Assembly: GCF_020662265.1 (NCBI RefSeq)
Contig: NZ_VEWM01000122.1
Location: 186,001 to 250,000, forward strand
DNA: 64,000 bases
Direction: 5' to 3'
Origin: Psychrobacter sp. I-STPA6b
GTDB taxonomy: Bacteria > Pseudomonadota > Gammaproteobacteria > Pseudomonadales > Moraxellaceae
The notes beneath the pieces were generated by a model. It ran no database searches, had not been told where the DNA came from, and was given only the letters and a program-made list of their open reading frames with translations. The translations under genes were made by a program, and so were the position numbers. This document shows positions 1 to 49,800 of the stretch, in pieces. Numbering within the stretch: position 1 is the stretch's first letter; the number at the start of each line of letters is the position of its first letter.

Positions 1-26
1 ATTTCCACATTATGAAGGATAGTAAG

Positions 27-2840: not shown

Positions 2841-2865
2841 CATAGATACATGTTTTGCATCTATG
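2841..2865. promoter_or_regulatory. Imperfect palindrome upstream of ssb
   Basis: CATAGATAC (2841-2849) and GCATCTATG (2857-2865) form a 9-bp inverted repeat with one G-T pair and a 7-nt loop, about 60 bp before the ssb start. It could be an operator in the ssb promoter or a chance hairpin. I do not recognise it as a LexA-type box. Confidence 0.3.
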
Positions 2866-2922
2866 GTAAGTATATGACATTTATAAAAACTTACAATTTT
2901 TATCTTTTAAAAGGATATAACT

Positions 2923-5220: not shown

Positions 5221-6030
5221 GTGGCTTTGAAGACCGTTGCATCCTCAGCTAATCAAAAACCTCGACCATGGAAGATATGGTGGTTGGTTGCTATTGTGAT
5301 ATTGTTGCTTTGTATTCTAGTTCAGATACCAGCAATATGGCTATTAGGTAAGTTTGCACCTGATTCAAAGCTGATTCAGCAAGTGTCGGGGAATTTATGG
5401 CATGGTTCAGCCATTGTTCAGCTGCCACCTGAGCTGTCAGCCAATCCTTCATCAGTGGTTACTGGTTCGGTTATGTGGCAGTGGCGTCCTTGGGCTTTAT
5501 TTTTAGGAAAGGTAGGCATGGATGTTGAGATTGAGTCCGGACAGACGCGATTACAAGGACAGATTAATCGTAGTTTTAGTCAGTGGCAGTTGCAAGATTG
5601 GTCAGGAAAAATTGATAAGCAAACATTGTCTTCTGTAGTAAATTGGCAACTTCCAGATGCACCAATACAGATTAATGCACTTTCTTTAAGTTATGATAAG
5701 TCAGTGGGTTTTGAGGATGTTGATGGACAGCTGACTTGGGTTGGTGGAGAGATGGGCTATCCTAGTGGAAACAAGATATATCAGATTTTATTGCCAGCAA
5801 TGCGTGCTGATATTAGTAATGAGAATAAAGATAATAAACAAGTTATTCATGCCAATCTTGTAGATAATAATAATAAGCGCCTTGGCGACTTGTATATTGA
5901 TAATGATGCGATGTTAGATGTGAGCTTGACGCAAAGATTTTTGGAAAATATGCCAGAATATAGTGGTAGTGCGCCCGCAGATACAGCCGTTGTGAGTGTG
6001 CGTCAGCCTCTTTTGGGTGGTCAGTCATGA
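5221..6030 (+). CDS. gspN: Type II secretion system protein N
   Basis: GspN-family accessory protein of the type II secretion system, a bitopic inner-membrane protein with most of its mass in the periplasm. Seen: a short cytoplasmic N-terminus, one TM segment at about residues 19-44 (WWLVAIVILLLCILVQIPAI), then a beta-rich region with the family-typical GNLWHGSA and a Trp-rich stretch (VMWQWRPWALFL). It starts with GTG; no in-frame ATG lies nearby and the ribosome binding site is weak. It overlaps gspC by 4 nt (ATGA), indicating translational coupling, and the N-C-D cluster supports the call. Other gsp genes must lie elsewhere. Confidence 0.85.
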   Translation: MALKTVASSANQKPRPWKIWWLVAIVILLLCILVQIPAIWLLGKFAPDSKLIQQVSGNLWHGSAIVQLPPELSANPSSVVTGSVMWQWRPWALFLGKVGMDVEIESGQTRLQGQINRSFSQWQLQDWSGKIDKQTLSSVVNWQLPDAPIQINALSLSYDKSVGFEDVDGQLTWVGGEMGYPSGNKIYQILLPAMRADISNENKDNKQVIHANLVDNNNKRLGDLYIDNDAMLDVSLTQRFLENMPEYSGSAPADTAVVSVRQPLLGGQS

Positions 6031-6995
6031 CTACTTCAGCAAGTCAAATAGCTAAGTCGGCGATCGTATGGGTGAACCGACTGTCAGGTTGGTTATTATT
6101 ATTAGCAATTATTTGGTTGTGCTGGAGTGTTGCCCGTATTCTTTGGCTGATTTTAGCCCCGCCTGTAGCACCAGCTTTACCTCTTTTAGAAAAACAGCCA
6201 CCCCCAGTATTATCTACAAATACCAGTAATGCTTTGACTATCTTCGAGAATGAACCAAGTCAGCCTGCAACTCCAAAACGTCCACCACCACAAGTTACCC
6301 TGAAGGGTGTCATGATAGCGCAGCCAAGTGATCTATCTTCAGCAATGCTTGAAGTAGAGGGAAAAGTAGCGAATTATCGTATTGGTAAGTTTTTGGCAGA
6401 CACAGGGTATAAGCTGATAGATGTTTCATGGAATCAGGTCATTATTGCTGATGATAGTGACAATCAAGTTGTTATTGATATGCCTCCACCATTAGAGTTA
6501 AATCAAAATACAGCTGGGGCTAGTAATAGTCGTGGTATTGGTAACCATCGTTTGTCTGCATCGTCTGGTGCTTCAGTAACTACAAATAATCGCCTTGATG
6601 AGCAGATGGCACTAGATGCATTGGATACGGATGGAGCATTAGAAGGTTTTCAAGCTGAAGGTGGTATCGAAGCACCAGAGCAAACAGAACCGGATGTGAA
6701 TGCTTCTTTGAATCAAGCCACAGAAGAACTAAAACAAAATCCTGCCAGTTATTTAAGTCGTATGGGTGTGATGGCGACAGGAGAAGGCTATCAGGTCACA
6801 GAAGCCATGCCAGCACATATCCGTGATAGGTTGGGTCTTGAGGCTGGAGATAGAGTATTGTCTGTAAATGGGCAGAATGTGGGTAGTAATCCTGCGGCAG
6901 ATGCCGATTTACTGCAACAAGTGAAGCAGTCGGGTGAAGCTCAAATTGAGGTGAGACGTGGCGATCAGGTGATTAATATTCGTCAGCAGTTTTAA
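6027..6995 (+). CDS. gspC: Type II secretion system protein C
   Basis: Inner-membrane GspC, which links the secretin GspD to the inner-membrane platform. Domains in order: one TM segment (about 17-42), a Pro-rich linker, the HR domain (about 88-150; PPPQVTLKGVMIA and YRIGKFLADTGYKLIDV), a low-complexity Ser/Asn/Glu linker (about 155-235) and a C-terminal PDZ domain (about 240-320; GLEAGDRVLSVNGQNVG). It overlaps gspN by 4 nt and sits 202 bp upstream of gspD, its binding partner. The long disordered linker between HR and PDZ is notable but plausible for the family. Confidence 0.93.
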   Translation: MTTSASQIAKSAIVWVNRLSGWLLLLAIIWLCWSVARILWLILAPPVAPALPLLEKQPPPVLSTNTSNALTIFENEPSQPATPKRPPPQVTLKGVMIAQPSDLSSAMLEVEGKVANYRIGKFLADTGYKLIDVSWNQVIIADDSDNQVVIDMPPPLELNQNTAGASNSRGIGNHRLSASSGASVTTNNRLDEQMALDALDTDGALEGFQAEGGIEAPEQTEPDVNASLNQATEELKQNPASYLSRMGVMATGEGYQVTEAMPAHIRDRLGLEAGDRVLSVNGQNVGSNPAADADLLQQVKQSGEAQIEVRRGDQVINIRQQF

Positions 6996-32621: not shown

Positions 32622-33239
32622 ATGATGTCTGCCTTTAATTGGTCAGCACTTGCTTTTATTCTAGCAGCCATTGGCTTGGTTATCTTTATGCTGGTTGTGC
32701 CTCGTCTATTAGGGGGACGCTCTCAAGGCTCGCAAAAAGAAGAAATATTTGAGTCAGGTGTTGTTGGTGCTGGTAATGCACGTATTAGGCTGTCTGCCAA
32801 GTTCTACTTAGTTGCCATCTTCTTTGTTATTTTCGATTTAGAAGCATTGTATTTATATGCCTATGCTGTGTCTGTTAAAGAGGCAGGCTGGGCAGGGTTT
32901 ATTACGGCTGCAACTTTTGTGGTTGATTTATTAATTGGTTTGATTTATGCGTTAAGTTTGGGGGCTTTAAATTGGGCCCCAGCAGATAAACGCCGTAAAA
33001 AGCAGCGCCTTCAGTCCGCACCTGTTGGATTTAATTTGGCAGATATCACACGTTTTAATGGTATTGATGAGCTGCATACTGATCCAACAGGGAAAGTGCC
33101 AGCACAGTCGTCTGGACAGATTAATGTCTCTAATGATATTGCAGCCAATCGTGCGCATTTAGCTAATATTGATCATATTAATAAGACGGGACATATTACC
33201 AGTGTGGACTTTACAGATACCTCTGTAAAAAAGACTTAA
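32622..33239 (+). CDS. nuoA: NADH-quinone oxidoreductase subunit A
   Basis: Membrane subunit of respiratory complex I near the quinone-binding joint. Three TM segments lie within residues about 8-130. Family markers are EIFESGVVGAGNARIRLSAK and VIFDLEALYLY. GAGGAGCG precedes two adjacent ATGs; either could start. The protein is 205 aa against 147 in E. coli. The excess is a soluble C-terminal tail (about 130-205) rich in D, N, T and H. It is the first gene of the nuoA-N operon, 202 bp before nuoB. Confidence 0.95.
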   Translation: MMSAFNWSALAFILAAIGLVIFMLVVPRLLGGRSQGSQKEEIFESGVVGAGNARIRLSAKFYLVAIFFVIFDLEALYLYAYAVSVKEAGWAGFITAATFVVDLLIGLIYALSLGALNWAPADKRRKKQRLQSAPVGFNLADITRFNGIDELHTDPTGKVPAQSSGQINVSNDIAANRAHLANIDHINKTGHITSVDFTDTSVKKT

Positions 33240-33441
33240 AAACTAAATATTTAAGACAGTTGTTTCTGCAAGAATATTAAGATATTTATTTGATTTTCTT
33301 GATGATTAAAATAGAGTTGGATTCATAATAATTTTTATTAAAAAGTTTTTTGATAGATTGTTTTTGTAGCTAAGTTTTTGATAAATAGTAGTTTGTTTGT
33401 TATTTCGTTATGGTTTCGCCATTTAAGATAGGTTGTGTGTC

Positions 33442-34110
33442 ATGAAATATACCTTAACCCGTGCTAATCCCGATGCAGATACTTATCCTGCGCAGACTCG
33501 TCAGACGGTAAATGACCCGATAGAAGATGAGGTCAATAAGAATGTCTTTATGGGTAAGCTTGAGGAGATGGTGAACGCGTCTGCGAATTGGGGACGTAAA
33601 AATTCACTTTGGCCATTTAATTTTGGGACATCATGTTGCTATGTTGAGTATGCGACAACATTGACAGCCGTACATGATTTGTCTCGCTTTGGTGCAGAGG
33701 TGATTCGTGCTTCCCCTCGTCAGGCTGATGTGATGATTGTCGCTGGTACGTGTTTTATTAAGATGGCACCTGTTATTCAGCGTTTATATGAGCAAATGCT
33801 TGAGCCTAAATGGGTGATTTCGATGGGTGCATGTGCTAATTCAGGCGGTATGTACGATATTTATTCGGTGGTACAAGGGGTCGATAAAATTATTCCTGTT
33901 GATGTTTATGTACCGGGATGTCCACCTCGTCCAGAGGCCTTGATACAGGCATTGATGTTGTTACAGGAGTCGATTAGCAAAGAGCGTCGTCCACTGGGTA
34001 TTCATGTGAAGGATCAGGGTATATATCAACCACAAATGCTACCAGAGCGAGACCGCAAACAGGCAGATCGTATTGCTGTTAAAAATTTGCGTAGCCCAGA
34101 TAGTATTTAA
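33442..34110 (+). CDS. nuoB: NADH-quinone oxidoreductase subunit B
   Basis: Peripheral-arm subunit holding the terminal [4Fe-4S] cluster N2, which passes electrons to ubiquinone. From the ATG at 33442 (222 aa) the ligands are C65 and C66 (GTSCCYVEY), C131 ([10 protein letters not shown]) and C160 (VPGCPPRPE), matching E. coli C63, C64, C129 and C158. The ORF is open 9 nt further to a TTG, which I reject. Located between nuoA and nuoCD. Confidence 0.98.
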
Positions 34111-34177
34111 TGAGTTGTTGTAGAGCTTGGTAGCGTTTTTTGGTGTTGTTATAAGGTGATTAAGGGAAGCCACATTT

Positions 34178-35965
34178 ATGGTTATGGCAGTGAATAATCA
34201 AGATAGTAATCATAGTGCTGATGCGCAGTCAGTACCGGCGGTGTTACGTGAGCTGGGCCATAAGTTTTCTGGAAAGTTTGTGCAACAAGCAACCGCAGAT
34301 GGTATTCCCACAATTTGGGTTGCTCGTGAAGACGTATTCAATATTTTAATGTTTTTGCGTACGCTACCTAAGCCATATGTCATGTTATTAGATTTGTCGG
34401 CGGTTGATGAGCGCTTGCGTCAGCACCGTCAAGGGCTTCCAGCCAGTGATTTTACAGTGTTTTATCACTTGATGTCACTTGAGCGTAATAGTGATATTCG
34501 CGTGAAAGTAGCATTATTTGAGGATGATTTAAAGACACCAACTGCAACTAAAATCTGGCCAAATGCCAATTGGTATGAGCGTGAAGTGTGGGATATGTTT
34601 GGTATCGTTTTTGACGGTCACCCACATTTAACCCGTATTTTACTGCCAAAATATTGGGAAGGACATCCTCTGCGTAAAGAATATCATGCTCGGGCAACGG
34701 AATTTACGCCTTATTTTCTAAACGCTGCCAAACAGCAGTTTGAGCAAGAAAACTTACGCTTTGTCCCAGAAGAGTGGGGAATGAAACGCTCTGGGCGTGA
34801 TGAAGATTTTATGTTTTTGAACATTGGTCCAAACCATCCTTCGGCTCATGGTGCATTTCGTTTGGTGTTACAGCTAGATGGTGAGGAAATCATCGACTGT
34901 ATCCCTGATATCGGTTATCACCATCGTGGCGCTGAAAAGATGGCAGAACGGCAAACGTGGCATTCATTTATCCCTTATACCGATAGGATTGACTATTTGG
35001 GTGGGGTAATGAATGAGCTGCCTTATGTGATGGCGGTAGAAAAGCTGGCAGGTATTACTGTACCAGATAGGGCAATGACCATTCGTATTATGATGAGTGA
35101 GTTTTTCCGTATCACCAATAATCTGCTGTATTTTGGTACGTTTATTCAAGATGCTGGTGGTATGACCCCTGTTTTTTATATGTTTACTGACCGTCAAAAA
35201 GCCTATGATGTGATTGAGGCGGTGACTGGTTATCGTATGCATCCTGCATGGTTCCGTATCGGTGGTACGGCGGCTGATTTGCCACGTGGTTGGCATAAGT
35301 TGGTGCGAGAGTTTTTGGATTGGATGCCAAAGCGCCTTGACGAATATGTGAAGGCGGCAATGAAAAATACGGTACTACAAGGACGTACACAAAATGTCGC
35401 TCAATATGATGCCAAGCAAGCATTGGCTTGGGGTGTGACAGGGGCAGGTTTGCGAGCCACTGGTGTTGAGTTTGACCTGCGTAAAGCCCGTCCTTATATG
35501 GGTTATGAGAATTTTGAGTTCGAAATCCCTGTATTTTATAACGGTGATGCTTATGACCGTTGTATGGTTAAAATTGAGGAAATTCGTCAGTCACTGCGTA
35601 TCATTCGTCAGTGTCTCGATAATATGCCTGAAGGTCCTTATAAAGCCAGCCACCCATTGGCAGTACCGCCACCTAAAGACCGTACTTTAAATGACATTGA
35701 AACCTTGATTAACCACTTTATTTCGGTGTCTTGGGGACCGGTGATGCCAGCAGGTGAGTCGTGCATGATGGTCGAAGGTGTCAAAGGGATTAACAGTTAT
35801 TATGTCACTTCTGACAAATCGACCATGAGCTATCGTACCCGTATTCGTACACCGACATTTGCACATCTGCAACAAATGCCATCAGTGATTAATGGTTCGT
35901 TGGTATCAGATGCGATTATTTATTTAGCCAGTATTGATATTGTGATGGCGGATTCTGACCGTTAG
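34178..35965 (+). CDS. nuoC: NADH-quinone oxidoreductase fused subunit C/D
   Basis: Fused NuoC (30-kDa) and NuoD (49-kDa) subunits, the fusion found in E. coli and related gammaproteobacteria. Residues about 1-180 are NuoC ([24 protein letters not shown] is split here: [12 protein letters not shown] then [10 protein letters not shown]). Residues about 200-595 are NuoD, with [22 protein letters not shown] read as [24 protein letters not shown] and the C-terminal [11 protein letters not shown]. The histidine and aspartate-rich NuoD motifs help form the quinone site. At 595 aa it equals the E. coli length. AAGGGAAG lies before the ATG. Confidence 0.97.
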
Positions 35966-36022
35966 TTTTAGTAAGACAAATAGCAATAGTTAGTAGCCTT
36001 ATCCGTAGGGAAAGATATAGCA

Positions 36023-36535
36023 ATGATTAAAATTGTTTCTGACAAAGCCCCAAAAGTTGATATAGCCAGTATTTTGACTGAGCAGGAAATTGATGCGATA
36101 CATGAGTATATGCACCATTATCCACAGGCTCGGGCAGCCTCATTGGACGCTTTAAAATATGTACAGCGTCGTAATGGCTGGGTGAACGATGCTCAGGTGA
36201 ATGCGATTGCCAATATTTTAGATGTGCCAGTGACAGATATTGAAGGGGTGGCAACTTTTTTTAATCGTATTTATCGCTCGCCTGTGGGTCGACATGTGAT
36301 TTTGATATGTGATTCGATTGCTTGTTATTTGACTGGCTATGAAGCACTGGCAGCTGAGCTAAAAAATCAGCTTGGTATTGAGTATGGTCAGACGACCAGC
36401 GATGGACGTTTTACTTTATTACCCATTTGTTGTTTGGGCAATTGTGATAAAGGCCCTGCGGTATTGATTGATGAGGATACCTATGGACCCGTTCAGCCAG
36501 AGGAAGTTGCACAGTTATTGGAGCTATACGCATGA
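36023..36535 (+). CDS. nuoE: NADH-quinone oxidoreductase subunit E
   Basis: 24-kDa subunit of the NADH dehydrogenase module, carrying [2Fe-2S] cluster N1a. Ligands seen: C96 and C101 ([12 protein letters not shown]) and C137 and C141 ([10 protein letters not shown]), with the same spacing as in E. coli. The 170-aa protein has the usual helical N-terminus. A GGGAAAG lies upstream of the ATG. It overlaps nuoF by 4 nt (ATGA), so the two partners are translationally coupled. Confidence 0.98.
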
Positions 36536-37983
36536 GTCAGACTATCGCCGAACAGATTGCCAGCCGCCAAGCAGGAAAAGCACCAAGCCAGCTTAATAGC
36601 CAACGTATCCCCATTTATGGTGATAAAGAGCAGGCTACGATAGAGACTAAGCCTTTGACATGGCGTTTAGCACATCATGATGCTGTCTTAGATTTGCAGA
36701 CGTATCAAACGTTACGAGGCTTTGAAGGGTTAAAAAATGCCTTAGAAACAGATCATAAAGATGTTGCTAATATGATTAAGGCTGCAAACGTACGTGGGCG
36801 TGGTGGTGCAGGTTTTAATGCAGGGTTAAAGTGGTCGTTTATGTCACCTCCAGATGGTGGCCCTCGCTATTTGATTTGTAATGCTGATGAGATGGAGCCG
36901 GGGACATTCAAAGACCGCCTGCTAATGGAGCGCCTACCTTTTCAATTAATCGAAGGCATGCTCATTACTGCTTATGCAATCGGGGCATCATCAGGATATA
37001 TATTTATCCGTGGCGAGTATATCTTAGCGGCAGAGCGTTTAAGTCGTGCTATTGATGAGTTGCTTGCCAATAATCTGCTTGGTGACAATATTTTAGGCAC
37101 TGATTTTAGTTTTGACTTACATGTGCATACAGGGGCAGGGCGTTATATTTGTGGTGAAGAAACAGCACTGATTAACTGTTTAGAAGGTCGCCGTGCTAAC
37201 CCTCGTACCAAGCCCCCTTTTCCACAGATTTCTGGGGCATGGGGTCGTCCAACAGTGGTTAACAATGTTGAGACGCTTAGTAATATGCCAGCGATTATGG
37301 TAAATGGTGTTGATTGGTATCAAGAGCTACCCAAATCATTGGGACGTAGTGAAACACCCGGAACCAAAATCTTTGGTTGCTCAGGTCTGGTCAATGATGC
37401 AGGCTTGTGGGAGTTGCCTTTTGGTTATACGGCACGTGAGATTATTGAAGACTTTGCAGGCGGGATGAAAGATGGACGCACCCTCAAAGCATGGTTGCCC
37501 GGTGGTGCATCGACAGATTTTTTGACCACAGAGCATTTAGATACCCCAATGGACTTTGATGCGATTCAAAAAGCGGGCAGTCGTATGGGGACTGGGCTAA
37601 TTATGGTGGTTGATGAGTCTCAAGATATGGTGGCATTGCTACAAAACTTAGAGACCTTCTTTCAGCGTGAATCTTGTGGGTGGTGTACGCCGTGTCGTGA
37701 TGGTTTGCCGTGGGGTGTGAAGTTATTAACAGCGATTAATCATGGTCAAGGTCAGCTTGGTGATGTCGAAAAACTACAAGGTTTGACCCGTGATTTATGG
37801 CTAGGTAAAACTTTTTGTGCGCATGCTCCGGGTGCAATGGAGCCTTTGATGAGTGCACTGAAATATTTCCGTCATGAATTTGATAGCAAGATTGAGCAGG
37901 CGGTTGGGGTTCAGGCAATAGATGCAGTAAAGTCTGCAAAAAAACAGCCAGCTAAACCAGTGAAAGAAGCGGTTAGCCAGTAA
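36532..37983 (+). CDS. nuoF: NADH-quinone oxidoreductase subunit F
   Basis: 51-kDa subunit that binds NADH and FMN and holds [4Fe-4S] cluster N3. Seen: [17 protein letters not shown] (FMN/NADH glycine-rich loop), [18 protein letters not shown], and cluster ligands C382, C385, C388 ([11 protein letters not shown]) and C429 ([10 protein letters not shown]). At 483 aa it is about 38 residues longer than E. coli NuoF. The extra is mainly a Lys/Ala-rich C-terminal tail. It is followed not by nuoG but by a DUF1566 lipoprotein gene. Confidence 0.98.
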
Positions 37984-38023
37984 ATAGATTGACATGAGTT
38001 CTGTACAATGGAATGAACGAGCC

Positions 38024-38692
38024 ATGGTAAAACATCACTTAACCAATAAACTAGCTCAAACAGTTGTCTTGGGAATGCCGATTGGGCTATCAGCCGTCTT
38101 AATTTCAATATTATCAGGGTGTGTGACTGCTCAACATACTACTTATCCTAATGGTGAGAGAAATACTGATATAAAGAGAGGTATTTTGATAGATCATTAC
38201 ACAGTTTTTGATGATGGTACAGCGATAGATAATGATACTCGTATGATGTGGTCACGCTGTAGTATTGGGCAAACGTGGAATGGTAAAACCTGTATTGGTG
38301 AAGCAAATAAATATACGTGGAATGAAGCAGTTGATGCTGTTAAGCAGTTAAATACTGAAAATTATTTGGGTTATGACGATTGGCAAATGCCACATATCGA
38401 AGATTTACATAGTCTGATTTATTGTAATAAAGGATTTGTAGAGATGCGAAACATTCCAACAAAAATGAATACTGAAAAACAGGTTGGATGGTTTTGTCAA
38501 GGTGGTGATTATGGATACCAAAAGCCCACGATTAATCAACAGGCATTTCCCAATACAATAAAACGTTTTTATTGGTCATCTTCGGTACAACAAGATGATT
38601 ATATGTGGGGAATATATTTTGATGATGGTTATTCTCTTTATCATAAAAAGCATGATAGACACTATGTACGCCCCATACGTTTAGTACAGTAA
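38024..38692 (+). CDS. DUF1566 lipoprotein inserted in the nuo operon
   Basis: Predicted lipoprotein of 222 aa with no known link to complex I. From the ATG at 38024 the N-terminus is a signal peptide with lipobox ILSGC (Cys33). The C-terminal part is a DUF1566 (Lcl C-terminal-like) domain: YTWNEAVDAVKQLN, YDDWQMPHIEDLHSLI, RFYWSSSVQ, MWGIYFDDG and the closing HYVRPIRLVQ. Four further cysteines could form disulfides. An upstream in-frame ATG at 37994 is possible, but neither has a good ribosome binding site. It lies 40 nt after nuoF and 153 nt before nuoG, same strand. The coding style looks more AT-rich than its neighbours, suggesting insertion. Function unknown. Confidence 0.8.
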   Translation: MVKHHLTNKLAQTVVLGMPIGLSAVLISILSGCVTAQHTTYPNGERNTDIKRGILIDHYTVFDDGTAIDNDTRMMWSRCSIGQTWNGKTCIGEANKYTWNEAVDAVKQLNTENYLGYDDWQMPHIEDLHSLIYCNKGFVEMRNIPTKMNTEKQVGWFCQGGDYGYQKPTINQQAFPNTIKRFYWSSSVQQDDYMWGIYFDDGYSLYHKKHDRHYVRPIRLVQ

Positions 38693-38845
38693 TAGCAATA
38701 GTTTTTAGATAAATTGATATAAAGTGTTATTAAAATTAGCAAGCGATAGCAAGCAAAATGACCTTTGTTATTTATGTGTGAGTAAAGCCATAAAATGGTG
38801 CAATCTAGGCATAAATGACAAGTTTTAGATAACAGAGAGATACAA

Positions 38846-41800
38846 ATGGCAGTCATTCATATTGATGGAAAAACGGTCGAAGTTGATGGAGCAGACAATC
38901 TGTTGCAAGCTTGTTTGTCTTTAGGTATCGACGTTCCCTATTTTTGTTATCATCCTGCGTTAGGCTCAGTGGGGTCGTGCCGTCAATGTGCGGTCAAGCA
39001 GTTTAATAATAAAGAAGACATGGAGTCTGGGCGTGGACGTTTGGTAATGTCTTGTATGGTTGCCCCGACTGATGATATGTATATCTCAATCGACGATAAA
39101 GAGGCAAAAGAGTTTCGCCAGTCTATCGTTGAGTTTTTAATGACCAATCACCCCCATGACTGTCCAACTTGTGAAGAGGGTGGTCATTGTCATTTACAAG
39201 ACATGACTTATATGTCTGGACATAATCAGCGTCGTTATCGCTTTACCAAACGTACGCATCAAAACCAAGATCTAGGTCCTTTTATTGCCCATGAGATGAA
39301 CCGTTGTATCGCTTGCTATCGCTGTGTCCGCTTTTATAAAGATTATGCAGGTGGTGAAGATTTAGGGGTCTATGCGTCTAATAATCGTGTGTATTTTGGA
39401 CGTGATAAAGATGGACAGTTTGAAAGTGAGTTTTCAGGAAATTTAACTGAAGTTTGCCCGACAGGTGTGTTTACTGATAAAACCCATTCTGAGCGTTATA
39501 ATCGTAAATGGGATATGCAATATGCCCCAAGTGTTTGTCATGGCTGTTCGGCAGGGTGCAATATTTCACCAGGTGAGCGTTATGGGGAGTTGCGCCGTAT
39601 TGAAAATCGTTATAACGGTGAGGTAAATCGTTATTTCTTATGTGATTTGGGGCGTTTTGGCTATGGTTATGTGAACCGTAAAGACCGTCCTATCCAAGCA
39701 ATTGAGCGTATTAATGATAAAAACGTCAAGATTAATATTGATTATGCGCTTGATGAGACAGTGAAGCGTTTAAAAGATAAAAAAGTGATTGGTATTGGGT
39801 CGCCTCGTGCCAGTTTAGAGACCAATTTTGCTTTAAAAAAACTGGTTGGTTTTGATAAGTTTTCAACGGGATTAAATAGTCATCAGCAACAGTTGGTTGA
39901 AAAGTGTATTGAGGTATTGTCCACTGAAGACATTCATAACCCAAGTATTACTGAGATAGAATCTCATGACGCTGTTTTGATATTGGGTGAAGACATTACT
40001 CAGACTTCATCACGGGTAGCATTGGCAGTACGTCAGGCTGCAAAAAATAAAGCAGTAAAAATGGCGGCTGCGTTAAAAACTCAAGAGTGGTTAGCAGAGC
40101 CAGTACAGCGTATCGGTCAAAAAGAATATAGCCCTGTCTATATTATTGATGCTGTGCAAACTAAGCTAGATGATATTAGTAAAGTGAGCTGTGTGGCAAC
40201 ACCAGAGGATATTACCAAACTTGGCTATGCCATTGCTGAGCAGATTAATCATTTGTCTGATGATTTAGAGCAGATTAAGCAATCTGGAGGTACATGCGAA
40301 GTAGTAAATGATGAAGCATCACATGATATTAATTCAGATGCAGATTTAGATGCTATGACAGAGCTGGCAAGACAAATAGCTTATGACTTAGTGACTGCTG
40401 ATAAACCCTTGGTTGTCTCTGGTACAAGTCTATTTAATGTCTCTATCATTGAGGCGGCTGCACAAGTAACACAAGCATTAACCAGTAAGCGTCAAGCAAT
40501 CAAAACAACTGAGCTTGAGCATATAGAAATTCACAATGCCAGAGTGCGGGCGCAACAAGAGCAACCAGCAGTAGACAAAGAGCTAGAGGCGAAAGCGAAG
40601 CAAAGTGATACAGCTCAAGTAACAAGAGATACTAAAGAAAATTTAGAGCTTAAGCAGGAAGATACAGCTTACCGTAATCAAGCAAGTATTTATCTAAGTG
40701 TGCCAGATGCCAATAGTATTGGAGTATGTTTGCTAGGTGGTCAGTCTGTAGAGACATTATTGGCAAGTGAGTTTGATGCTGTGGTTGTGGCAGAGAATCA
40801 ATTAACTGATGCCATTGATGTTTCACGACTGGCTGACTTATTAGAGAATAAAACAGTCATTGCTTTAGATCATCAGTTTTTAGCTTGGCATCAGTTTGTT
40901 GATTTGGTATTACCCGCAGCAAGTTTTGCTGAAGCTGATGGTACGTTGGTATCTGCTGAGGGACGAGCGCAACGCTTCTTCCAAGTATATGACAGTAACT
41001 ACTATCATCCAATGAGTGGTATTAAGGAAGGTTGGCGTTGGTTGCATGCAGTACAAGCAAACTTAGAAGGCTTGCCTATTGACTGGACACAGTTGGATGA
41101 TGTGATTAGTGCATTGATAGATAGCCATCCGCATTTGCATGGTATTCGTCAAGCAGCCCCTGAAGCAGATTATCGAATCAGTGGATTGAAAATTGCTCGT
41201 GAGCCACGCCGTTATTCTGGGCGAACCGCCATGCGTGCGCCGATTTCAGTACATGAACCGATGCAGCCAAAAGATATTGATACGGGTTTGACTTTCTCAA
41301 TGGAAGGTTACACTGGAGAGCAAACGGATAGCTCAATGATTCCTTTTGCATGGTCGGCTGGCTGGAACTCGCCACAAGCATGGAATAAATATCAAGATAA
41401 GGTGGGCGGTCATCTGAAAAAGGGAGACCCTGGAGTGAGGTTGTTTGACCTTATTGAGGCTGAGCAACGGTTGCCAAAACGTGAATATGTCGCACCTGCA
41501 CAAACCTTCCCTGTTAAGACCAGTATGTTCCAAGGTCGTGCCAAACTTGTCCCTGTCTATAATATTTTTGCTAAATCTGCGATGGCGTATCGTAGTCCTT
41601 TAATTGCCTCACAAATGCCTGAAGCTACTTTTTATGTTTCTGCGGAGGATGCAGAGCATTGGCAAGTGTCAGAAGAGGACTGGTTAGCAATCACCACAGA
41701 TGGTGTACGTATAGAGTTGCCAGTACAGATTGTGCCTTATTTGGCAGAAGGGTGTATTGGTTATCCAGTTGGACAAGTGCCGATTATTCATGGCAATTTG

Positions 41801-41911
41801 CCAGCATCTGTAATCAAAATAGACCCACCGCAAATCAACGAAATACATGAAACAGCGGATATGGTAGAAGATTCTTTAACAACACAAACAACGGCTACTC
41901 AGGGGGCATGA
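38846..41911 (+). CDS. nuoG: NADH-quinone oxidoreductase subunit G
   Basis: 75-kDa subunit, the wire of the peripheral arm. Cluster ligands: N1b C34, C45, C48, C70; N5 H102, C106, C109, C115; N4 C154, C157, C160, C204; and the extra N7 cluster C231, C234, C238, C266 found in E. coli-type enzymes. A molybdopterin-oxidoreductase-like domain follows. The protein is 1021 aa against 908 in E. coli. A charged Gln/Glu/Lys-rich insert occupies about residues 553-613, and the C-terminus has a short Thr-rich tail. The stop overlaps nuoH by 4 nt (ATGA). Confidence 0.97.
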
Positions 41912-42957
41912 CCATGCAAGTAACTCGTATCATTCCTGATGTGCCTAGTTTCTTGGCAGGTAGTATGAGCTATGCTACTTGGTCGACATTATTTATGGTA
42001 GCACAGGCATTAGTTATCTTTTTGTCTGTGGTGATTGTGGCTGCTTTGATGATTATCTATGAGCGCCGTATGCTCGCATTATGGCAGGATAGATATGGCC
42101 CTAATCGGGTAGGACCTTTTGGGTCATTACAGCTGGTTGCTGATATGCTCAAAATCTTCTTTAAGGAAGACTGGACACCAAAGTTTGCTGATAAGTTTAT
42201 GTTTACTCTAGCGCCAGCTATTGCCATGTTTACGGCTCTGGCATCATTTGCCATTATTCCTATCTCACCAACACTTGGTGTTGCTGACTGGAACATTGGT
42301 ATTTTATTTTTCTTTGCCATGGCAGGTATGGCAGTTTATGCGGTGATGTTTGGTGGTTGGGCATCAGCAAATAAATACTCTTTACTAGGTGGCTTGCGCT
42401 CAGCAGCACAGACGATTAGTTATGAAGTGTTTTTAGGCTTGTCATTGATGGGTATTGTGGCTATGACAGGCTCATTCAATTTGCGTGAGATTGTTGAAGC
42501 ACAATCTGGTGGCTTATTGCACTGGAATGTCTTTCCACAGTTCTTGGGCTTTTTGACCTTTGTGGTTGCAGGTGTGGCTGTGACTCACCGTCATCCGTTT
42601 GACCAGCCAGAGGCAGAGCAAGAGCTGGCGGAAGGTTATCATGTTGAATATTCAGGTATGAAGTTTGGTATGTTCTTTATTGGTGAGTATGTCAATGTGG
42701 TGCTGATTTCAGCCTTGATGACTTGTTTGTTCTTTGGTGGTTGGATGCCATTAATAGATACAGGTTTTACCATATTGCCACCTGCTTTTTGGTTTATGAT
42801 TAAGACATTGTTTTTTATGACCATGTTTGTCTTGGCGCGGGGCTCTTTGATGCGCCCACGCTATGATCAGGTGATGAATTTTGGTTGGAAAGTATGTCTA
42901 CCAGTTACTTTGGTTAATTTATTGGCAACAGCAGCCATTATCTTATTGGTTCAATAA
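41908..42957 (+). CDS. nuoH: NADH-quinone oxidoreductase subunit H
   Basis: Membrane subunit forming much of the quinone chamber and the link to the proton pumps, with eight or more TM segments. Family signatures: [31 protein letters not shown] and [19 protein letters not shown] (charged quinone-side loop). It has 349 aa against 325 in E. coli; the extra residues are at the N-terminus. A second ATG two codons in is an alternative start. Overlaps nuoG by 4 nt; 35 nt before nuoI. Confidence 0.97.
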
Positions 42958-42992
42958 GTAAATTTTTTGTAAAAAATGCAAAGGAAAATTCC

Positions 42993-43553
42993 ATGTTAAC
43001 AGCATTTTTCACTGCTTTGAAAAAAACGGTCATAGGCATATTTACTATTGTCCGCTCAATGTGGATGGTGAATAGTCATGCGTTACGTCCTCGAGATACG
43101 ATTTTGTATCCAGAGCAGCCCGTTCCAGTTCCACCCAGATTTCGTGGACGTATTGTCTTAACTCGTGACCCTGATGGTGATGAGCGCTGTGTGGCATGTA
43201 ATCTGTGTGCGGTGGCGTGTCCAGTTGGCTGTATTTCATTACAAAAAGCAGAGCGTGAAGATGGACGCTGGTATCCTGAGTTTTTCCGTATCAACTTCTC
43301 ACGCTGTGTCTTTTGTGGTATGTGTGAGGAAGCTTGTCCAACCACAGCGATTCAGCTAACACCAGATTTTGAGCTGGGTGAGTATGTACGTCAAAACTTG
43401 GTCTATGAAAAAGAGCATTTGCTGATTTCTGGTCCGGGTAAATATCCAGATTATAACTATTATCGAGTAACAGGAATGGCGATTGCTGAAAAGCCAAAAG
43501 GGGCGGCACAAAATGAAGCACCACCAGTTGATTTAAGGAGCTTGTTGCCATGA
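42993..43553 (+). CDS. nuoI: NADH-quinone oxidoreductase subunit I
   Basis: Ferredoxin-like subunit with two [4Fe-4S] clusters, N6a and N6b, relaying electrons between NuoG and NuoB. The two binding motifs are [15 protein letters not shown] (C66, C69, C72, C76) and [12 protein letters not shown] (C105, C108, C111, C115). The N-terminal amphipathic helix anchors it to the membrane. 186 aa, standard length. AAGGAAAA lies before the ATG. Overlaps nuoJ by 4 nt. Confidence 0.98.
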
Positions 43554-44290
43554 CCAGTTTTTTACATTTTTTTGATAATACAGCATTGGTTGGCTTTTAT
43601 TCGCTAGCGATTGTTGCGATTGTTGCCAGTTTGCGAGTAGTTATTCATGCCAATCCAGTACATGCCATTTTATCAATGATTGTATCGTTACTGGCAGTGG
43701 CAGGCATCTTCTTTATTCTCGGTGCACCATTTGCAGGTGCATTGGAAGTGATTGTCTATGCAGGGGCAATTTTAGTGCTGTTTGTCTTTGTGATAATGAT
43801 GCTGAACTTGGGTGCGGCAAATGATGCCCGTGAAAGTCGTTGGTTATCGGCTCAAGTATGGGCAGTACCAACAGGATTGGCATTGATTATTGCTTTGGTG
43901 CTGTTCTCCATGATTGGCTTGGGAACATCTAATCCAAGTATTGATGGCTCAATGGCGATGGTGGCACAAGATACAGTATCTGCAAAGGCAGTGGGGGCAA
44001 CTTTATTTACACAATATATGTTGTTAGTTGAGGTTGCCGCGATGTTGCTATTAGCGGCTTTAGTGGCAGCTTATCACTTGGGTAAAAAAGCTTTGGATGA
44101 TGAGAATATTAGTCATAGCAGCCAGCAGTTTCAGCCCAGTGTTGGCAGTATCTCTGAGTATGATAATGAGGATGCTAGTGATGCGGTAGAGATGGCTAAG
44201 CCGTATGTATATCAGCCAGTGGATGCCAAAAGCTTTAAGGAAAAAGTTCAAAAAAATAAGATTCAGACAGCAGTTGAGGAGAAGCACTGA
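43550..44290 (+). CDS. nuoJ: NADH-quinone oxidoreductase subunit J
   Basis: Membrane subunit with five TM segments in the first roughly 180 residues. It contains the family TM3 region [21 protein letters not shown] (split: [25 protein letters not shown]), where a pi-bulge moves during coupling. The protein is 246 aa against 184 in E. coli. About 65 extra C-terminal residues (about 182-246) are polar, acidic then Lys-rich. Overlaps nuoI by 4 nt and nuoK by 1 nt (TGATG). Confidence 0.95.
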
Positions 44291-44754
44291 TGGCACAATC
44301 TGCGTTACAGGCTTCACAAAGTCCGACTGAATCATCAGCCCAGCCATTTGCTCATGAGCTATCCATTCATCAAGGTGGTGAGGCTCAAGCAGGTATAGAA
44401 ATGATGCCATCGACACATTCCAATGGATTTACAGCATCAGAAGCAGTGACAGGTATCCCGATGGGGCATGGATTGGCATTGGCAGGTATTTTATTTGCGA
44501 TTGGTCTATGTGGGGTAATGGTTCGGCGTAATTTCTTATTTATGCTGATGAGCCTTGAGATTATGATGAATGCAGCTGCATTGGCTTTTGTAGTGGCAGG
44601 CAGTCGCTGGGCAAGTCCTGATGGACAAGTTATGTTTATTTTTATTTTGACGTTAGCGGCAGCAGAGGCTTCGATTGGATTGGCGATTTTATTGCAATTT
44701 TATCATAAGCGGGGTCATTTAGATGTCGATAGTGCCAATGAGATGAAAGGATAA
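44290..44754 (+). CDS. nuoK: NADH-quinone oxidoreductase subunit K, N-terminally extended
   Basis: Small proton-pump-type membrane subunit. Residues about 55-154 align with the whole of E. coli NuoK (100 aa): [35 protein letters not shown] (membrane Glu of the proton path) and [14 protein letters not shown] (second Glu). About 55 residues precede this, polar and rich in Ser, Gln, His and Glu. The upstream ATG at 44290 has a strong GAGGAG 8 nt before it and a 1-nt overlap with nuoJ, so the extension is probably translated. Internal GTG 44446 or ATG 44461 would give a standard-length protein but lack a good ribosome binding site. Confidence 0.93.
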
Positions 44755-44759
44755 GTGCC

Positions 44760-46634
44760 ATGAGTTTATTATCATTGACCTTTATATTCCCATTCATTGG
44801 CTTTTTGATATTAGCCACAATGCGTGACCGTTTAAGCCAAGATACGGCAAGAGCTGTTGGTGTTGGTAGTATGGGGCTAAGTGCGCTGTGTGCATTGGTC
44901 GTATCGATTCAGTTTTTGACAACTTATGAGTCTGGTACTGTCGTCAATATACCTTTGTGGACATGGATGCAAATAGGAGATTTTGCACCAGCTTTTGGAT
45001 TGAGCTTTGATGGTCTTGCATTGACGATGACAGGTATCATCACTGGCGTGGGCTTTCTGATTCACTTATTCGCATCTTGGTATATGAAGGGTGAGTCTGG
45101 TTACTCACGCTTTTTTAGTTATATGAATCTGTTTGTCGCCAGTATGTTATTGCTGGTATTGGCAGATAATTTGTTGCTCTTATATCTTGGCTGGGAAGGT
45201 GTTGGTATCTGCTCTTATCTATTAATTGGTTTCTATTTTCATGATAGAGCCAATGGTCGAGCAGCCATTAAGGCATTTACAGTGACCCGTGTGGGTGATG
45301 TGTTTTTGGCGTTTGGACTGTTCTTATTGTTCCGTGAGTTTGGGACATTAAATATTCAAGATATTATTACTCAAGCCCCTGCATTATATGCAGTCAATAA
45401 TCAAAATATGATTTTGGCGACGATGATGCTTGTTGGTGGTGCGATGGGTAAGTCTGCCCAGATTCCATTACATACATGGTTGGCAGATGCAATGGCAGGA
45501 CCAACGCCTGTATCGGCTTTGATTCATGCGGCAACGATGGTAACGGCAGGTGTCTATTTGATTGCACGGATGCATCCAGTATTCTTATTAACACCAGGTA
45601 TTTTATTGTATTGGGTCGGTGCCGTTGGTGCGATTACACTTGTAGTGGCTGGTTTTTGTGCTTTGGCACAGACAGATATTAAACGTATCTTGGCCTATTC
45701 AACAATGAGCCAAATTGGCTATATGTTTTTAGCACTGGGTGTTGGTGCTTGGCAAGGTGCGATTTTTCACTTGATGACGCATGCTTTCTTTAAGGCATTA
45801 TTATTCTTATCTTCAGGTGCTGTCATTATTGCTGTTCATCATGAGCAGAACATCTTTAAGATGGGCGGATTACGCAAAAAGATTCCATTGGTATTTTGGA
45901 GCTTTATCGTTGGTGGCGGTGCATTGGCAGCTATTCCATTTGTGACCATTGGTTATTATTCAAAAGATGCTATCTTGTGGGAAAGTTATGCTGCAGGACA
46001 CCAAATGTTGTTTTATATGGGTGTATTTGGGGCATTTTTAACGTCTATATATACCTTTAGAATGATTTGGTTCACCTTTTATGGTGAAGAAAAGACACAT
46101 GCTCATAAGCTGTCAGGATTATCCTATCAGATACCTTTGGCTGTGTTATTGGTATTATCGACAGGACTTGGTGCATTGATTACGCCACCGCTACAGGGTG
46201 TGTTGCCAGAAGGCGTCGGGAAACTTTTAGAAGTGGCTGGTGAGGCACATGGTAAACACTTTGCTGAGTTTACAGCGATGGGGGCAATGCTGGCAGGTGC
46301 TGCTGTGGCATACATGCTGTATGTGGTCAATGCTGGTCAATTATTAGCAAAATTTAAAGCGTCTAGCATTGGTGGTGCTATTTATTATTGGTGTTATAAC
46401 GGCTTGGGTTTTGATGCGTTATATGATTGGATTTTTGTGAAACCATTCTTGTTGATTGGTCGTTTGCTAAAAGTAGATCCAGTGGATAAAACATGGGGTG
46501 TTTTACCAATGCTTGCCTCTATTGGAAATAAGGCCGTGGTGGCAATACAAACAGGCTCACTGCGAGGGTATGCTGCTAGCTTTGGTATTGGCATGGCAGT
46601 GTTATTGGTACTTGTGATGATGACGGTGGTATAA
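44760..46634 (+). CDS. nuoL: NADH-quinone oxidoreductase subunit L
   Basis: Antiporter-like distal proton-pumping subunit with about 14-16 TM segments and the long lateral helix at the C-terminus. Signatures: YLGWEGVGICSYLLIGFY (conserved Glu), PLHTWLADAMAGPTPVSALIHAATMV (split in print: LHTWLADAMAGPTPVSALIH) and KRILAYSTMSQIGYMFLALG. 624 aa against 613 in E. coli, full length. It starts 5 nt after nuoK, and nuoM follows after 1 nt. Confidence 0.97.
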   Translation: MSLLSLTFIFPFIGFLILATMRDRLSQDTARAVGVGSMGLSALCALVVSIQFLTTYESGTVVNIPLWTWMQIGDFAPAFGLSFDGLALTMTGIITGVGFLIHLFASWYMKGESGYSRFFSYMNLFVASMLLLVLADNLLLLYLGWEGVGICSYLLIGFYFHDRANGRAAIKAFTVTRVGDVFLAFGLFLLFREFGTLNIQDIITQAPALYAVNNQNMILATMMLVGGAMGKSAQIPLHTWLADAMAGPTPVSALIHAATMVTAGVYLIARMHPVFLLTPGILLYWVGAVGAITLVVAGFCALAQTDIKRILAYSTMSQIGYMFLALGVGAWQGAIFHLMTHAFFKALLFLSSGAVIIAVHHEQNIFKMGGLRKKIPLVFWSFIVGGGALAAIPFVTIGYYSKDAILWESYAAGHQMLFYMGVFGAFLTSIYTFRMIWFTFYGEEKTHAHKLSGLSYQIPLAVLLVLSTGLGALITPPLQGVLPEGVGKLLEVAGEAHGKHFAEFTAMGAMLAGAAVAYMLYVVNAGQLLAKFKASSIGGAIYYWCYNGLGFDALYDWIFVKPFLLIGRLLKVDPVDKTWGVLPMLASIGNKAVVAIQTGSLRGYAASFGIGMAVLLVLVMMTVV

Positions 46635-46635
46635 G

Positions 46636-48321
46636 ATGACTCAATTACAGCTTTCTTGGATGTTACCAGCGCTTATTTCAGTACCTTTTATTGCCGGAAT
46701 TTTATGCTGGCTGGTTGAAAAGGTCAGTGATAGATTGCCACGCTGGGTAGCATTGTTTGGCATGATTATTACATTTGTCATGACACTCATTTTATGGCAA
46801 CACGGCGGATTTACTGGTATGAGCCAGCAGGTATATCCTGCGAGTGCTGATTTGCCATGGTTTGCTCAGTTTGATATGCCGTGGATTGATAGCTTTGGGA
46901 TTCGCTTCCATTTAGCTATGGATGGCTTGTCACTATTGATGGTGGTTTTAACAGCTTTGTTAGGTATTTTAGCTGTAGGTTGTTCTTGGGGTGAGATACA
47001 GCGCCGTGTTGGCTTCTTCCATTTGAATTTATTATGGAGTTTGGGTGGCGTTATTGGTGTCTTTTTGGCTATCGATTTGTTTTTGTTCTTCTTCTTTTGG
47101 GAGATGATGCTTGTACCGATTTACTTTCTAATTGCGCTTTGGGGACATAATATTCCAGGTGGTAAAAGTAGAGAGTATGCAGCAACTAAGTTCTTTATTT
47201 ATACTCAGGCATCTGGCTTGATTATGCTGATTGGTATCTTGATTTTGGTGATTGTAAGCTATGCAGCAACTGGAAAAGTAAGCTTTAATTATAATGATTT
47301 ATTAGGGGTACAACTGGGAGGATGGGAATATCCGATTATGTTGTGTTTCTTTATTGGCTTTGCGGTGAAGTTACCGGTAATGCCTTTTCATGGTTGGTTG
47401 CCAGATGCTCATGCCCAAGCACCTACTGCTGGTTCGGTCGATTTGGCTGGTATTTTGATTAAAACAGCAGCTTATGGGTTGTTACGTTTTGTCTTACCAT
47501 TATTTCCAACTGCATCACAAGAATTTGCACCAATCGCAATAACATTAGGCACAATTGGTATTTTTTATGGAGCATGGTTGGCGTTTGTGCAAACCGATGT
47601 CAAGCGCTTACTGGCTTATACCAGTGTATCTCATATGGGCTTTGTGGTATTAGCAATCTATGCAGGTACGTTATTAAGCCTGCAAGGATTGATGGTACAA
47701 ATGCTGGCTCATGGTTTATCTTCAGCCGCCTTATTTATTATGGCAGGACAGTTATATGAACGTCTACATACGCGTGATTTGACAGTGATGGGTGGTATGT
47801 GGGGGCAGTTGCGTTATTATCCTGCATTTTTGATGTTCTTTTGTGCCGCCTTATTAGGTATACCTGGAACAGGGAACTTTATTGGAGAATTCTTAATCCT
47901 ATTAGGCTCATTTGAGCAGTATCCAGTATTTGTCATTCTGGCGACATTCAGTTTGGTGTGGGCAGGTTTATATTCTTTAATACTGATTTATCGTGCTTTA
48001 TTTGGACAACCGCAGAAGTTTGAAGCTGTGTCAATGCAACAAGCCTCTTATTCTCATATAGATGAATCAGCAAAAGTGGTAAAAGAACCTGAAGTCAATC
48101 CAAGGGTTACGACAAAGCGTCGAATACTCTATGACTTAAATGCACGTGAAATGACGATGTTATTAATATTAGTTGTTGGCTTAGTTTGGTTGGGATTGTT
48201 CCCCCAGCAGGTGTTGGATACATCTAGTCAAAGTATGCAATGGATTAATAATGCCTATACTTATCATCAAGTTGTAAATATAGATATGCTGTCAACATTA
48301 ACAATCGAGGAGGCGCGTTAA
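46636..48321 (+). CDS. nuoM: NADH-quinone oxidoreductase subunit M
   Basis: Antiporter-like proton-pumping subunit. Signatures: FFFWEMMLVPIYFLIALWG (conserved Glu), LPVMPFHGWLPDAHAQAPT (conserved Lys region just before) and DVKRLLAYTSVSHMGFV. 561 aa against 509 in E. coli. Much of the excess is a charged loop at about residues 462-500 (SYSHIDESAKVVKEPEVNPR) before the last TM segment. It starts 1 nt after the nuoL stop, and nuoN follows after 3 nt. Confidence 0.97.
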   Translation: MTQLQLSWMLPALISVPFIAGILCWLVEKVSDRLPRWVALFGMIITFVMTLILWQHGGFTGMSQQVYPASADLPWFAQFDMPWIDSFGIRFHLAMDGLSLLMVVLTALLGILAVGCSWGEIQRRVGFFHLNLLWSLGGVIGVFLAIDLFLFFFFWEMMLVPIYFLIALWGHNIPGGKSREYAATKFFIYTQASGLIMLIGILILVIVSYAATGKVSFNYNDLLGVQLGGWEYPIMLCFFIGFAVKLPVMPFHGWLPDAHAQAPTAGSVDLAGILIKTAAYGLLRFVLPLFPTASQEFAPIAITLGTIGIFYGAWLAFVQTDVKRLLAYTSVSHMGFVVLAIYAGTLLSLQGLMVQMLAHGLSSAALFIMAGQLYERLHTRDLTVMGGMWGQLRYYPAFLMFFCAALLGIPGTGNFIGEFLILLGSFEQYPVFVILATFSLVWAGLYSLILIYRALFGQPQKFEAVSMQQASYSHIDESAKVVKEPEVNPRVTTKRRILYDLNAREMTMLLILVVGLVWLGLFPQQVLDTSSQSMQWINNAYTYHQVVNIDMLSTLTIEEAR

Positions 48322-48324
48322 GTC

Positions 48325-49800
48325 ATGAATGAATTAATGACGATAGGTTTAAATAGCTTAATGCCATTTGCCTCTATTATTATTGTTGTTTTGACGGTTT
48401 TGTTGGTGATGATTTTGATTGCTGCAAAGCGCTCACACTTCATCACGGCAACAATTAGTGTGATTGGATTGAATGCAGCACTGATTGTGCTGATGATGCA
48501 AATCTTAGGTTGGTATGCCATACCAGCCGAGATAGTCGTAGACCCTATGTTTGTGGTTGACTCTTTTGCCCAGTTTAACATGGTTGTGATTTTAGTATCA
48601 TCACTGGCTTGTTTTACCTTATCTTATGCTTATTTTGAGTCATTCAAAGATAAAAAAGAAGAGCTGTATTTATTGATGCTACTCTCTACTATTGGCGCAA
48701 TGTTGATGGTGTGTGCGCATAATCTTGCCTCATTCTTTATCAGCTTAGAGTTATTGTCCGTGCCATTATATGGCATGCTGGCATATGCTTTTATGCGCAA
48801 TCAATCGTTAGAGTCGGGTTTAAAGTATCTGGTTTTATCAGCAACTGCCTCTGCGACATTATTGATGGGTATGGCATTTGTGTATGCGGAAGTGGGTACA
48901 TTAGACTTTAAAGAAATCAGTGTTGCTATGCATTATGTACTAGAGTCACCATTGATGATTCTGGGTGCTACTATGATGTTATTTGCCATCGCTTTCAAGT
49001 TATCTGCTGCCCCTTTCCATACATGGACACCTGACGTCTATGAGGGTGCACCAGCGCCAATTGCGACATATCTGGCATCTGTGAGTAAAGTGGCCATGAT
49101 GGGATTAGCCATTCGTTTCTTAATTGATACAGCCGCCTTAGCAATTGAAAGTTTGCAAATGCTAATGATGGTTATTGCAACGTTATCAATATTGGTAGGT
49201 AACTTATTGGCAGTTCGTCAAAATAATTTAAAGCGTCTGCTAGGTTACTCTTCAATTGCTCATATGGGATATGTGCTGGTAGTGGTTGTTAGTATTGGTG
49301 CTGCTGCTGAAGTTGTCAGTAATATGTATATGGCAATGTATGCACTGACGTCGATTGGCTCTTTTGGCGTAATTACATTAATGTCAAGCCCTTATCAAGA
49401 TGCAGGTGAGGCTGATAAACTCAGTTATTATCAAGGCTTATTCTGGCGTCGACCAGTGATGACAGGGATGATGACGATTATGTTGCTATCTTTGGCAGGT
49501 ATCCCATTGACAGCAGGGTTCATTACCAAGTTTTTTGCAGTGTTATCAGCTGTTCAGGGGATGCAGTGGTTCTTAGCTGTTATGATTGTTGTTGGTAGTG
49601 CTATCGGCTTATACTATTATCTACGTGTATTACTGACAATGTATAAACGCCCTCATGGTAATATTAAATTTGATGCGATGCCTCATTGGGGCGCTCAAGT
49701 TGGTGGCATCATGATTATGATAGTAACTTTAGTGGTGATTTATTTTGGTATATTACCAAATGACTTGATTATATGGTCGGAGCAGGCACGGATTTGGTAA
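48325..49800 (+). CDS. nuoN: NADH-quinone oxidoreductase subunit N
   Basis: Third antiporter-like proton-pumping subunit, about 14 TM segments, 491 aa (E. coli 485). Signatures: FFISLELLSVPLYGMLAY (conserved Glu), LSAAPFHTWTPDVYEGAP and LKRLLGYSSIAHMGYVLV. CGAGGAGG lies 12 nt before the ATG. It is the last gene of the nuo operon; a terminator follows 50 nt later. Confidence 0.97.
   Translation: MNELMTIGLNSLMPFASIIIVVLTVLLVMILIAAKRSHFITATISVIGLNAALIVLMMQILGWYAIPAEIVVDPMFVVDSFAQFNMVVILVSSLACFTLSYAYFESFKDKKEELYLLMLLSTIGAMLMVCAHNLASFFISLELLSVPLYGMLAYAFMRNQSLESGLKYLVLSATASATLLMGMAFVYAEVGTLDFKEISVAMHYVLESPLMILGATMMLFAIAFKLSAAPFHTWTPDVYEGAPAPIATYLASVSKVAMMGLAIRFLIDTAALAIESLQMLMMVIATLSILVGNLLAVRQNNLKRLLGYSSIAHMGYVLVVVVSIGAAAEVVSNMYMAMYALTSIGSFGVITLMSSPYQDAGEADKLSYYQGLFWRRPVMTGMMTIMLLSLAGIPLTAGFITKFFAVLSAVQGMQWFLAVMIVVGSAIGLYYYLRVLLTMYKRPHGNIKFDAMPHWGAQVGGIMIMIVTLVVIYFGILPNDLIIWSEQARIW

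Follow-up and report, generated by a model that had tools for sequence, protein, structure and literature searches.

A DUF1566 lipoprotein gene, probably inserted between nuoF and nuoG of the complex I operon in one Psychrobacter lineage

Background

The nuo/nqo operons of Paracoccus and Rhodobacter carry, among the genes of complex I, extra URFs that do not encode subunits of the enzyme. None of the paper titles surveyed reports a gene of the DUF1566 family within a nuo operon. The domain has been studied in surface proteins of other bacteria. According to the part of the source at hand, the Legionella adhesin Lcl is defined by collagen-like Gly-X-Y repeats, a trimeric stalk and glycosaminoglycan-binding surface lysines, and its DUF1566 (Lcl_C) domain is C-type-lectin-like, the role suggested for DUF1566 being to recognize carbohydrates and/or to form trimers (PMC11162425). 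The leptospiral protein Lsa25 is likely surface exposed and binds laminin, in part via the sugars of laminin, as described in the available portion of its report (PMC3444417).

Here we analyze an interval of the nuo operon of Psychrobacter sp. I-STPA6b that contains such a domain. The window, namely the whole stretch of DNA that was analyzed, is 64,000 nucleotides long and corresponds to C63:186001-250000 of a draft genome (G000; 3.22 Mb in 142 contigs, with an estimated contamination of 3.11%). We consider it probable that a stand-alone DUF1566/Lcl_C lipoprotein gene was inserted after the nuoF stop codon in this Psychrobacter lineage, that it is read from the nuo transcript, and that its product is not part of complex I.

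Results

The nuo operon and the nuoF-nuoG interval

The nuo operon occupies positions 32622-49800 on the + strand of the window. The genes nuoA, B, CD, E, F and G were assigned by family matches, while the names nuoH to nuoN are our assumption from gene order and general knowledge of the operon. With the nuoF stop codon ending at 37983 and nuoG starting at 38846, the interval between them is 862 bp, as had also been counted in the first-pass annotation. That annotation described a tightly packed operon broken between nuoF and nuoG. The break itself stands, given 862 bp against -4 to 67 nt at the other junctions, with the exception of nuoA-nuoB (33240-33432), which had gone unmentioned and is loose too, with 193 nt. 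NuoA is itself long (205 aa). Features of the interval and of its two neighbours are collected in Table 1.

Table 1 Features of the nuoF-nuoG interval. Positions are those of the window unless a contig is named. Column Basis denotes the evidence used for the assignment.
Feature	Position	Strand	Basis
nuoF, intact, 5' neighbour	36532..37983	+	PF01512, PF10589; TIGR01959 above cut-off
Probable inserted segment, 762 bp, no counterpart in I-STPA10	37984..38745	+	Spacer alignment; congener gaps
DUF1566/Lcl_C lipoprotein gene, longest reading, 232 aa	37994..38692	+	ORF and Pfam profile
Predicted lipoprotein signal peptide MVKHHLTNKLAQTVVLGMPIGLSAVLISILSG	38024..38119	+	Sequence; lipobox motif LSGC
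Lipobox cysteine, residue 43 of the 232-aa reading; Val at +2	38120..38122	+	Motif, sequence
Lcl_C (DUF1566) domain, residues 75-229	38216..38680 (= C63:224216-224680)	+	PF07603; structure model
TAGCAAGC repeated in tandem across the 3' end of the insert; the stretch homologous to the sister species takes in the second copy but not the first	38737..38754	+	Repeat counts, sister alignment
Older nuoG leader common to I-STPA10, possible hairpin	38746..38845	+	Alignment, BLAST, z -2.0
nuoG, intact, 3' neighbour	38846..41911	+	TIGR01973, 617 bits, cut-off 470

The lipoprotein gene and its product

The operon was said to be interrupted by the gene of a secreted lipoprotein with a DUF1566 domain, and this agrees both with the lipobox and with the PF07603 match, which is above the cut-off (100.5 bits versus 34.9, E 9.6e-29) and covers profile positions 1-117 of 117. 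Four more Lcl_C/DUF1566 matches above the cut-off are found in the same genome. The alternative in-frame ATG at 38024, which results in a protein of 222 aa, is perhaps likelier to be the true start than that of the longest reading, because it coincides with the beginning of the signal peptide and is preceded, at a distance of 10 nt, by a weak GGAA. The features of a lipoprotein signal are present, consisting of a basic n-region, a hydrophobic stretch and the lipobox LSGC at residues 40-43 (read by motif only). By the lipoprotein sorting rule, Val at +2 directs such proteins to the outer membrane.

In order to examine conserved residues, the window protein was aligned with 39 homologues (40 sequences; numbering of the 222-aa reading). 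The three residues that are invariant in the 40 sequences, W76, C90 and P123, are all kept. Among the 16 nearly invariant DUF1566 positions, 13 are kept and three are replaced (R121 by Q, E127 by D and V218 by I). Since all three of the former and 13 of the latter are present, the gene is not a wreck. The cysteines C134 and C158 of the long loop co-occur in the same 12 of the 40 sequences, within and beyond Moraxellaceae, which suggests a disulphide between them.

The AlphaFold2 monomer model, calculated with 37 sequences, has a mean pLDDT of 89.0 and a pTM of 0.82. Its fold is C-type-lectin-like, and the top match among solved structures is the C-terminal domain of Lcl (8q4e; Z 13.7, rmsd 3.5, 123 residues, 20% identity), followed by Bd2740 of Bdellovibrio (Z 11.1) and then by C-type lectins (Z 8-10). 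Foldseek returned 8q4e with an E of 4.2e-4 as the sole match below E 0.001. A plain phmmer search of the PDB with the window protein gave no match, and profile matches to hemagglutinin chains (E 0.03-0.1) were weak and taken as chance. The product is probably a lipid-anchored, extracytoplasmic, lectin-like binding protein of the outer membrane.

The empty site in relatives and the nuoG leader

All 105 genomes of the genus that were examined have nuoF, and the nuoF-nuoG junction was compared in the 104 others. The gap is 9-112 bp in every one of them, compared to 862 bp here; it is 9-16 bp in 101 genomes and 59, 109 and 112 bp in the remaining three, and closed ORFs within the gaps reach 13 codons at most. 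Among other Moraxellaceae, the gap ranges from 1 to 62 bp in 17 genomes of 11 genera (of 18 genomes tried, one belonged to another family and yielded no match to NuoG). The junction comparison that the first-pass annotation had proposed therefore does confine the gene at this place to one lineage: it is known from one genome of 105 in the genus, and was found in 0 of the 104 other congeners and 0 of the 17 other Moraxellaceae.

The 109-bp gap is that of Psychrobacter sp. I-STPA10 (G108; NZ_VFYU01000003.1), which groups with the window genome as its sister in the nuoG tree with a support of 0.985. We found that 106 of the 109 nt of this spacer align to the last 100 nt before nuoG with a score of 88, whereas 500 shuffles had a mean of 30 and a best value of 48. 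BLAST of the whole 153-nt gap between the lipoprotein gene and nuoG against the I-STPA10 genome matched the orthologous place (71% identity, E 3.7e-5). Because of this homology, the extra DNA is about the 762 bp directly after the nuoF stop codon. The 153-nt gap had been counted as part of the insert, which has to be revised, as the final 100 nt correspond to an older spacer also present in the sister species. The alignment implies that the nuoG leader would be at least as old as the lipoprotein gene. A hairpin at aligned places in the two leaders has a z of -2.0 in the window (7 of 200 shuffles as good) and -1.7 in the sister (12 of 200), values that are no more than suggestive. Among congeners, a leader of about 100 nt with this hairpin (window 38746-38845; L048 358-466) is found only in the two sister species, and it may serve as a site of processing or control inside the nuo operon.

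The shared spacer may also be read in another order of events, in which the gene entered before I-STPA10 diverged and was then deleted in that species, with the 109-bp spacer as a remnant of its 3' flank. We regard this older insertion as unlikely, though deserving serious weight. It would account for a spacer that is common to these two genomes only, since its similarity to the 59- and 112-bp gaps does not exceed that of shuffles and 101 of the 104 gaps are of 16 bp or less; the NuoF C-terminus of I-STPA10 also looks unlike that of the window and of the others. However, an extra deletion is required, and the leader accounts for 106 of the 109 spacer nt, which leaves no room for a gene remnant. 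The choice between insertion after the split and earlier entry followed by loss rests on parsimony.

Composition, repeats and signals

As had been noticed before, the interval is AT-richer than its surroundings, with a GC of 34.3% compared to 39.9% for the window. The gene itself has a GC of 35.8%, the second lowest among the 48 ORFs of at least 100 aa in the window (mean 41.2, sd 2.6), and this low value fits an acquired gene. The codon-usage divergence of the gene is ordinary, and recent entry from a distant source is therefore not demonstrated. The duplicated TAGCAAGC reported in the gap before nuoG is indeed there, at 38737-38744 and 38747-38754. The octamer occurs in the window at chance frequency (3 found versus 3.55 expected), and the 18-nt tandem pair has one exact occurrence in the genome. 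With respect to a target-site duplication, the tandem was found at the 3' boundary only, with no copy at the 5' boundary.

Consensus scans gave no promoter-like site on the + strand in either gap flanking the lipoprotein gene, and the 862 bp were free of terminator-like sites. The secondary promoter that the first-pass annotation had suggested for the 153-nt gap did not find support, there being no consensus match in this gap or in the I-STPA10 spacer; other promoter types are possible. A promoter-like match (9 of 12) lies within the lipoprotein gene at 38186-38215 and a terminator-like match within nuoF at 37500-37512. Given regional totals of 6 promoter-like matches versus 6.7 expected from shuffles and 3 terminator-like matches versus 1.5 expected, neither of the two appears striking, though either may be real and would then speak against reading of the gene from the nuo transcript. 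A search of 37000-39500 against Rfam, with E up to 1, gave no match to an RNA element. Since the gene starts 10 or 40 nt from the nuoF stop codon, with no promoter-like site in the gaps and no terminator-like site in the interval, it is likely co-transcribed with nuo.

Relatives and origin of the gene

Matches at E ≤0.001 were found in 5 of the 104 other genomes of the genus, in 34 of 348 genomes of the family and in 66 of 390 genomes of an order sample, the latter two counts including the own genome. In search of a donor, nothing above 41% over most of the domain was seen in the 348 family and 390 order genomes; the top long match in the genus is in G116 (41% over residues 75-227), and G324 of the family has 41% over residues 72-229. 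DUF1566 relatives are present on 42 of 72,556 plasmids, 27 of them predicted conjugative, with 28-29% identity among the 20 matches listed, and 50,697 phage records gave no match. Protein scans of viral contigs and genome contigs, the reach of which is close relatives, gave no confirmed match. An origin from a plasmid or phage was thus set aside, with distant relatives only on the former and no match in the latter.

No integrase, transposase or target duplication was found at the insert. Except for the DUF1566 gene, no ORF of at least 70 aa lies wholly inside the 862 bp, and the repeats found there are not longer than 18 nt. A mobile element at the insert may have been lost or degraded; entry may have been by natural transformation and illegitimate joining, or by such a since-lost element.

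The G116 gene also stands alone, with a UvrD-like helicase gene on one side and a dus gene on the other. The helicase and dus genes are neighbours 54-176 bp apart (measured from BLAST ends) in 28 of the 30 genomes sampled, that of the window included; in the other two the helicase was outside the fetched stretch. A DUF1566 match at this junction was found in 0 of the 30. Hence, at both sites tested, nuoF-nuoG and helicase-dus, a lone DUF1566 gene is in a junction that is empty in relatives. The two inserts have no common ends above shuffles.

Other DUF1566 genes of the genus were also inspected. Transposase genes of G031 (rve, HTH_Tnp_1; L161, 6172-7322) are adjacent to a DUF1566 gene, and a HTH_Tnp_1 transposase gene of G108 (L153, 7317-7616) is about 0.7 kb from a DUF1566 gene, with a 148-aa ORF between them. 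The DUF1566 query matched I-STPA10 (G108; loci L152-L154, L156-L160) 19 times, more often than any other of the 105 congeners, the window genome being next with 4, which indicates an expansion in the sister of the window species; some of these matches are in open frames of 1000-1800 aa. The DUF1566 genes of the genus, often one large and one small, adjoin surface or haem-uptake genes. Examples are a TonB-dependent receptor and a Slam-dependent surface lipoprotein (L162 of G084, 326-6715), a long secreted-looking protein (L158 of G108, 215-5692) and, in the own genome, haem oxygenase (L163, 7034-10621; gene = window 12-620) and a ChaN-type haem-binding protein (L164 on C117, 5743-8425). Such neighbours hint at a role of DUF1566 in the capture of surface ligands or haem.

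Other explanations of the locus

A functional coupling, such that the dose of the lipoprotein follows respiration or that the protein aids the assembly or stability of complex I, seems very improbable to us. The gene does stand between two subunits of the NADH module, with a complete domain and no promoter-like site before it. However, conservation with the operon, which would mark an accessory subunit of complex I, was seen in 0 of 104 congeners and 0 of 17 other Moraxellaceae; as the gene is at this place in no relative examined, coupling is unlikely. Furthermore, the product is predicted to be extracytoplasmic, and the top long match, in G116, adjoins helicase and dus genes instead.

An assembly error or contamination that joined foreign DNA into the operon is hardly credible. 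The insert comes from one genome only, of 142 contigs and with the contamination estimate given above, but it is flanked by intact nuo genes on both sides inside a 298,511-bp contig, the leader homologous to I-STPA10 is directly 3' of it, and searches of the own genome, phages and plasmids gave no near-identical copy, in collections that may omit records near the window.

That the gene is the target of a diversity-generating retroelement (DGR) is next to inconceivable and was rejected: DUF1566 tops the annotated domains of DGR variable proteins in a human-microbiome study (PMC4159848, from the portion of the paper at hand) and the fold matches Mtd variants (Z 8.6-9.1), but the own genome has no second copy of the 3' end of the gene as a template repeat (862 bp without other match at E <0.69 in the 142-contig draft), and its two RVT_1 matches are an RT-Cas1 fusion and a retron St85-like protein, with no DGR-type reverse transcriptase. 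The fusion has 1081 aa (L233 298-3543, on C117) and the retron St85-like reverse transcriptase 489 aa (L234 943-2412, on C32).

Discussion

Insertion of a stand-alone gene in the lineage of this Psychrobacter species is the explanation we prefer, and it would proceed as follows. A lone gene of a secreted, C-type-lectin-like lipoprotein would have been inserted directly behind the nuoF stop codon, with the older leader retained before nuoG and both nuoF and nuoG left intact. Having little or no promoter of its own, the gene would be translated from the nuo transcript. The product would leave the cytoplasm via Sec, receive its lipid at the lipobox cysteine and, with Val at +2, be sorted to the outer membrane, and would bind some glycan or protein ligand outside the cytoplasm. 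The insert would be tolerated because neither neighbour is disturbed, and its location among cytosolic subunits of the NADH module would be an accident of insertion.

The protein family is already known, and the lineage-specific insertion looks real. The protein is probably unrelated to respiration, and for complex I itself the insertion probably has no meaning. What the locus offers instead is a clean example, with a well-resolved empty site and a sister species for comparison, of one gene that shows no mobile-element hardware and lies inside a respiratory operon which is highly conserved and stays unbroken. If the two-site pattern is general, surface proteins would be gained gene by gene, using ready-made transcription. 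As a tentative and rather doubtful generalization, the lone long-loop DUF1566 genes of Moraxellaceae could be itinerant single-gene cassettes of surface lectins that settle one by one between housekeeping genes (nuoF-nuoG in the window genome, helicase-dus in G116) with no mobile-element hardware. There they may rely on the surrounding operon for expression and provide a lineage with a new surface specificity; in the present case, the amount of the receptor would follow complex I transcription.

Comparison with known systems

The window protein resembles the Lcl_C/DUF1566 family (PF07603) in having a complete domain above the cut-off, the conserved residues (3 of 3 and 13 of 16) and a C-type-lectin-like fold. 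It differs from most of the members compared in its lipoprotein signal, as 74 of the 89 listed ORFs (that of the window included in the 89) have no lipobox by a motif which missed at least two plausible cases (L003, L205). The long two-cysteine loop, seen in 12 of the 40 sequences, and the location of the gene inside the nuo operon are further differences from other DUF1566 proteins.

In the comparison with the Legionella adhesin Lcl, the C-terminal domain (8q4e) is the top structural match by a margin and has a profile match with an E of 4.8e-7. Unlike Lcl, the 232-aa translation has no collagen-like Gly-X-Y repeats, and its predicted anchor is a lipid whereas Lcl has an amphipathic helix. 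The glycosaminoglycan-binding lysines K369, K380, K385 and K391 of Lcl correspond to Q, D, L and D in the window protein, in a gapless comparison made by eye from YWSS to VR with Arg342 left out. These four replacements make it likely that the ligand differs from that of Lcl. To leptospiral Lsa25 (NF047850) there is a weak match over residues 53-107, of which the 41.2 bits are far under the curated cut-off of 260.

Unlike the window gene, the lone gene of G116 runs opposite to the genes on either side and has about 160 bp of upstream DNA to itself; its product showed no lipobox, and its flanking DNA resembles the window insert no more than shuffles do. It resembles the window gene in its match over residues 75-227, in the same long cysteine loop and in occupying a junction that is empty in relatives.
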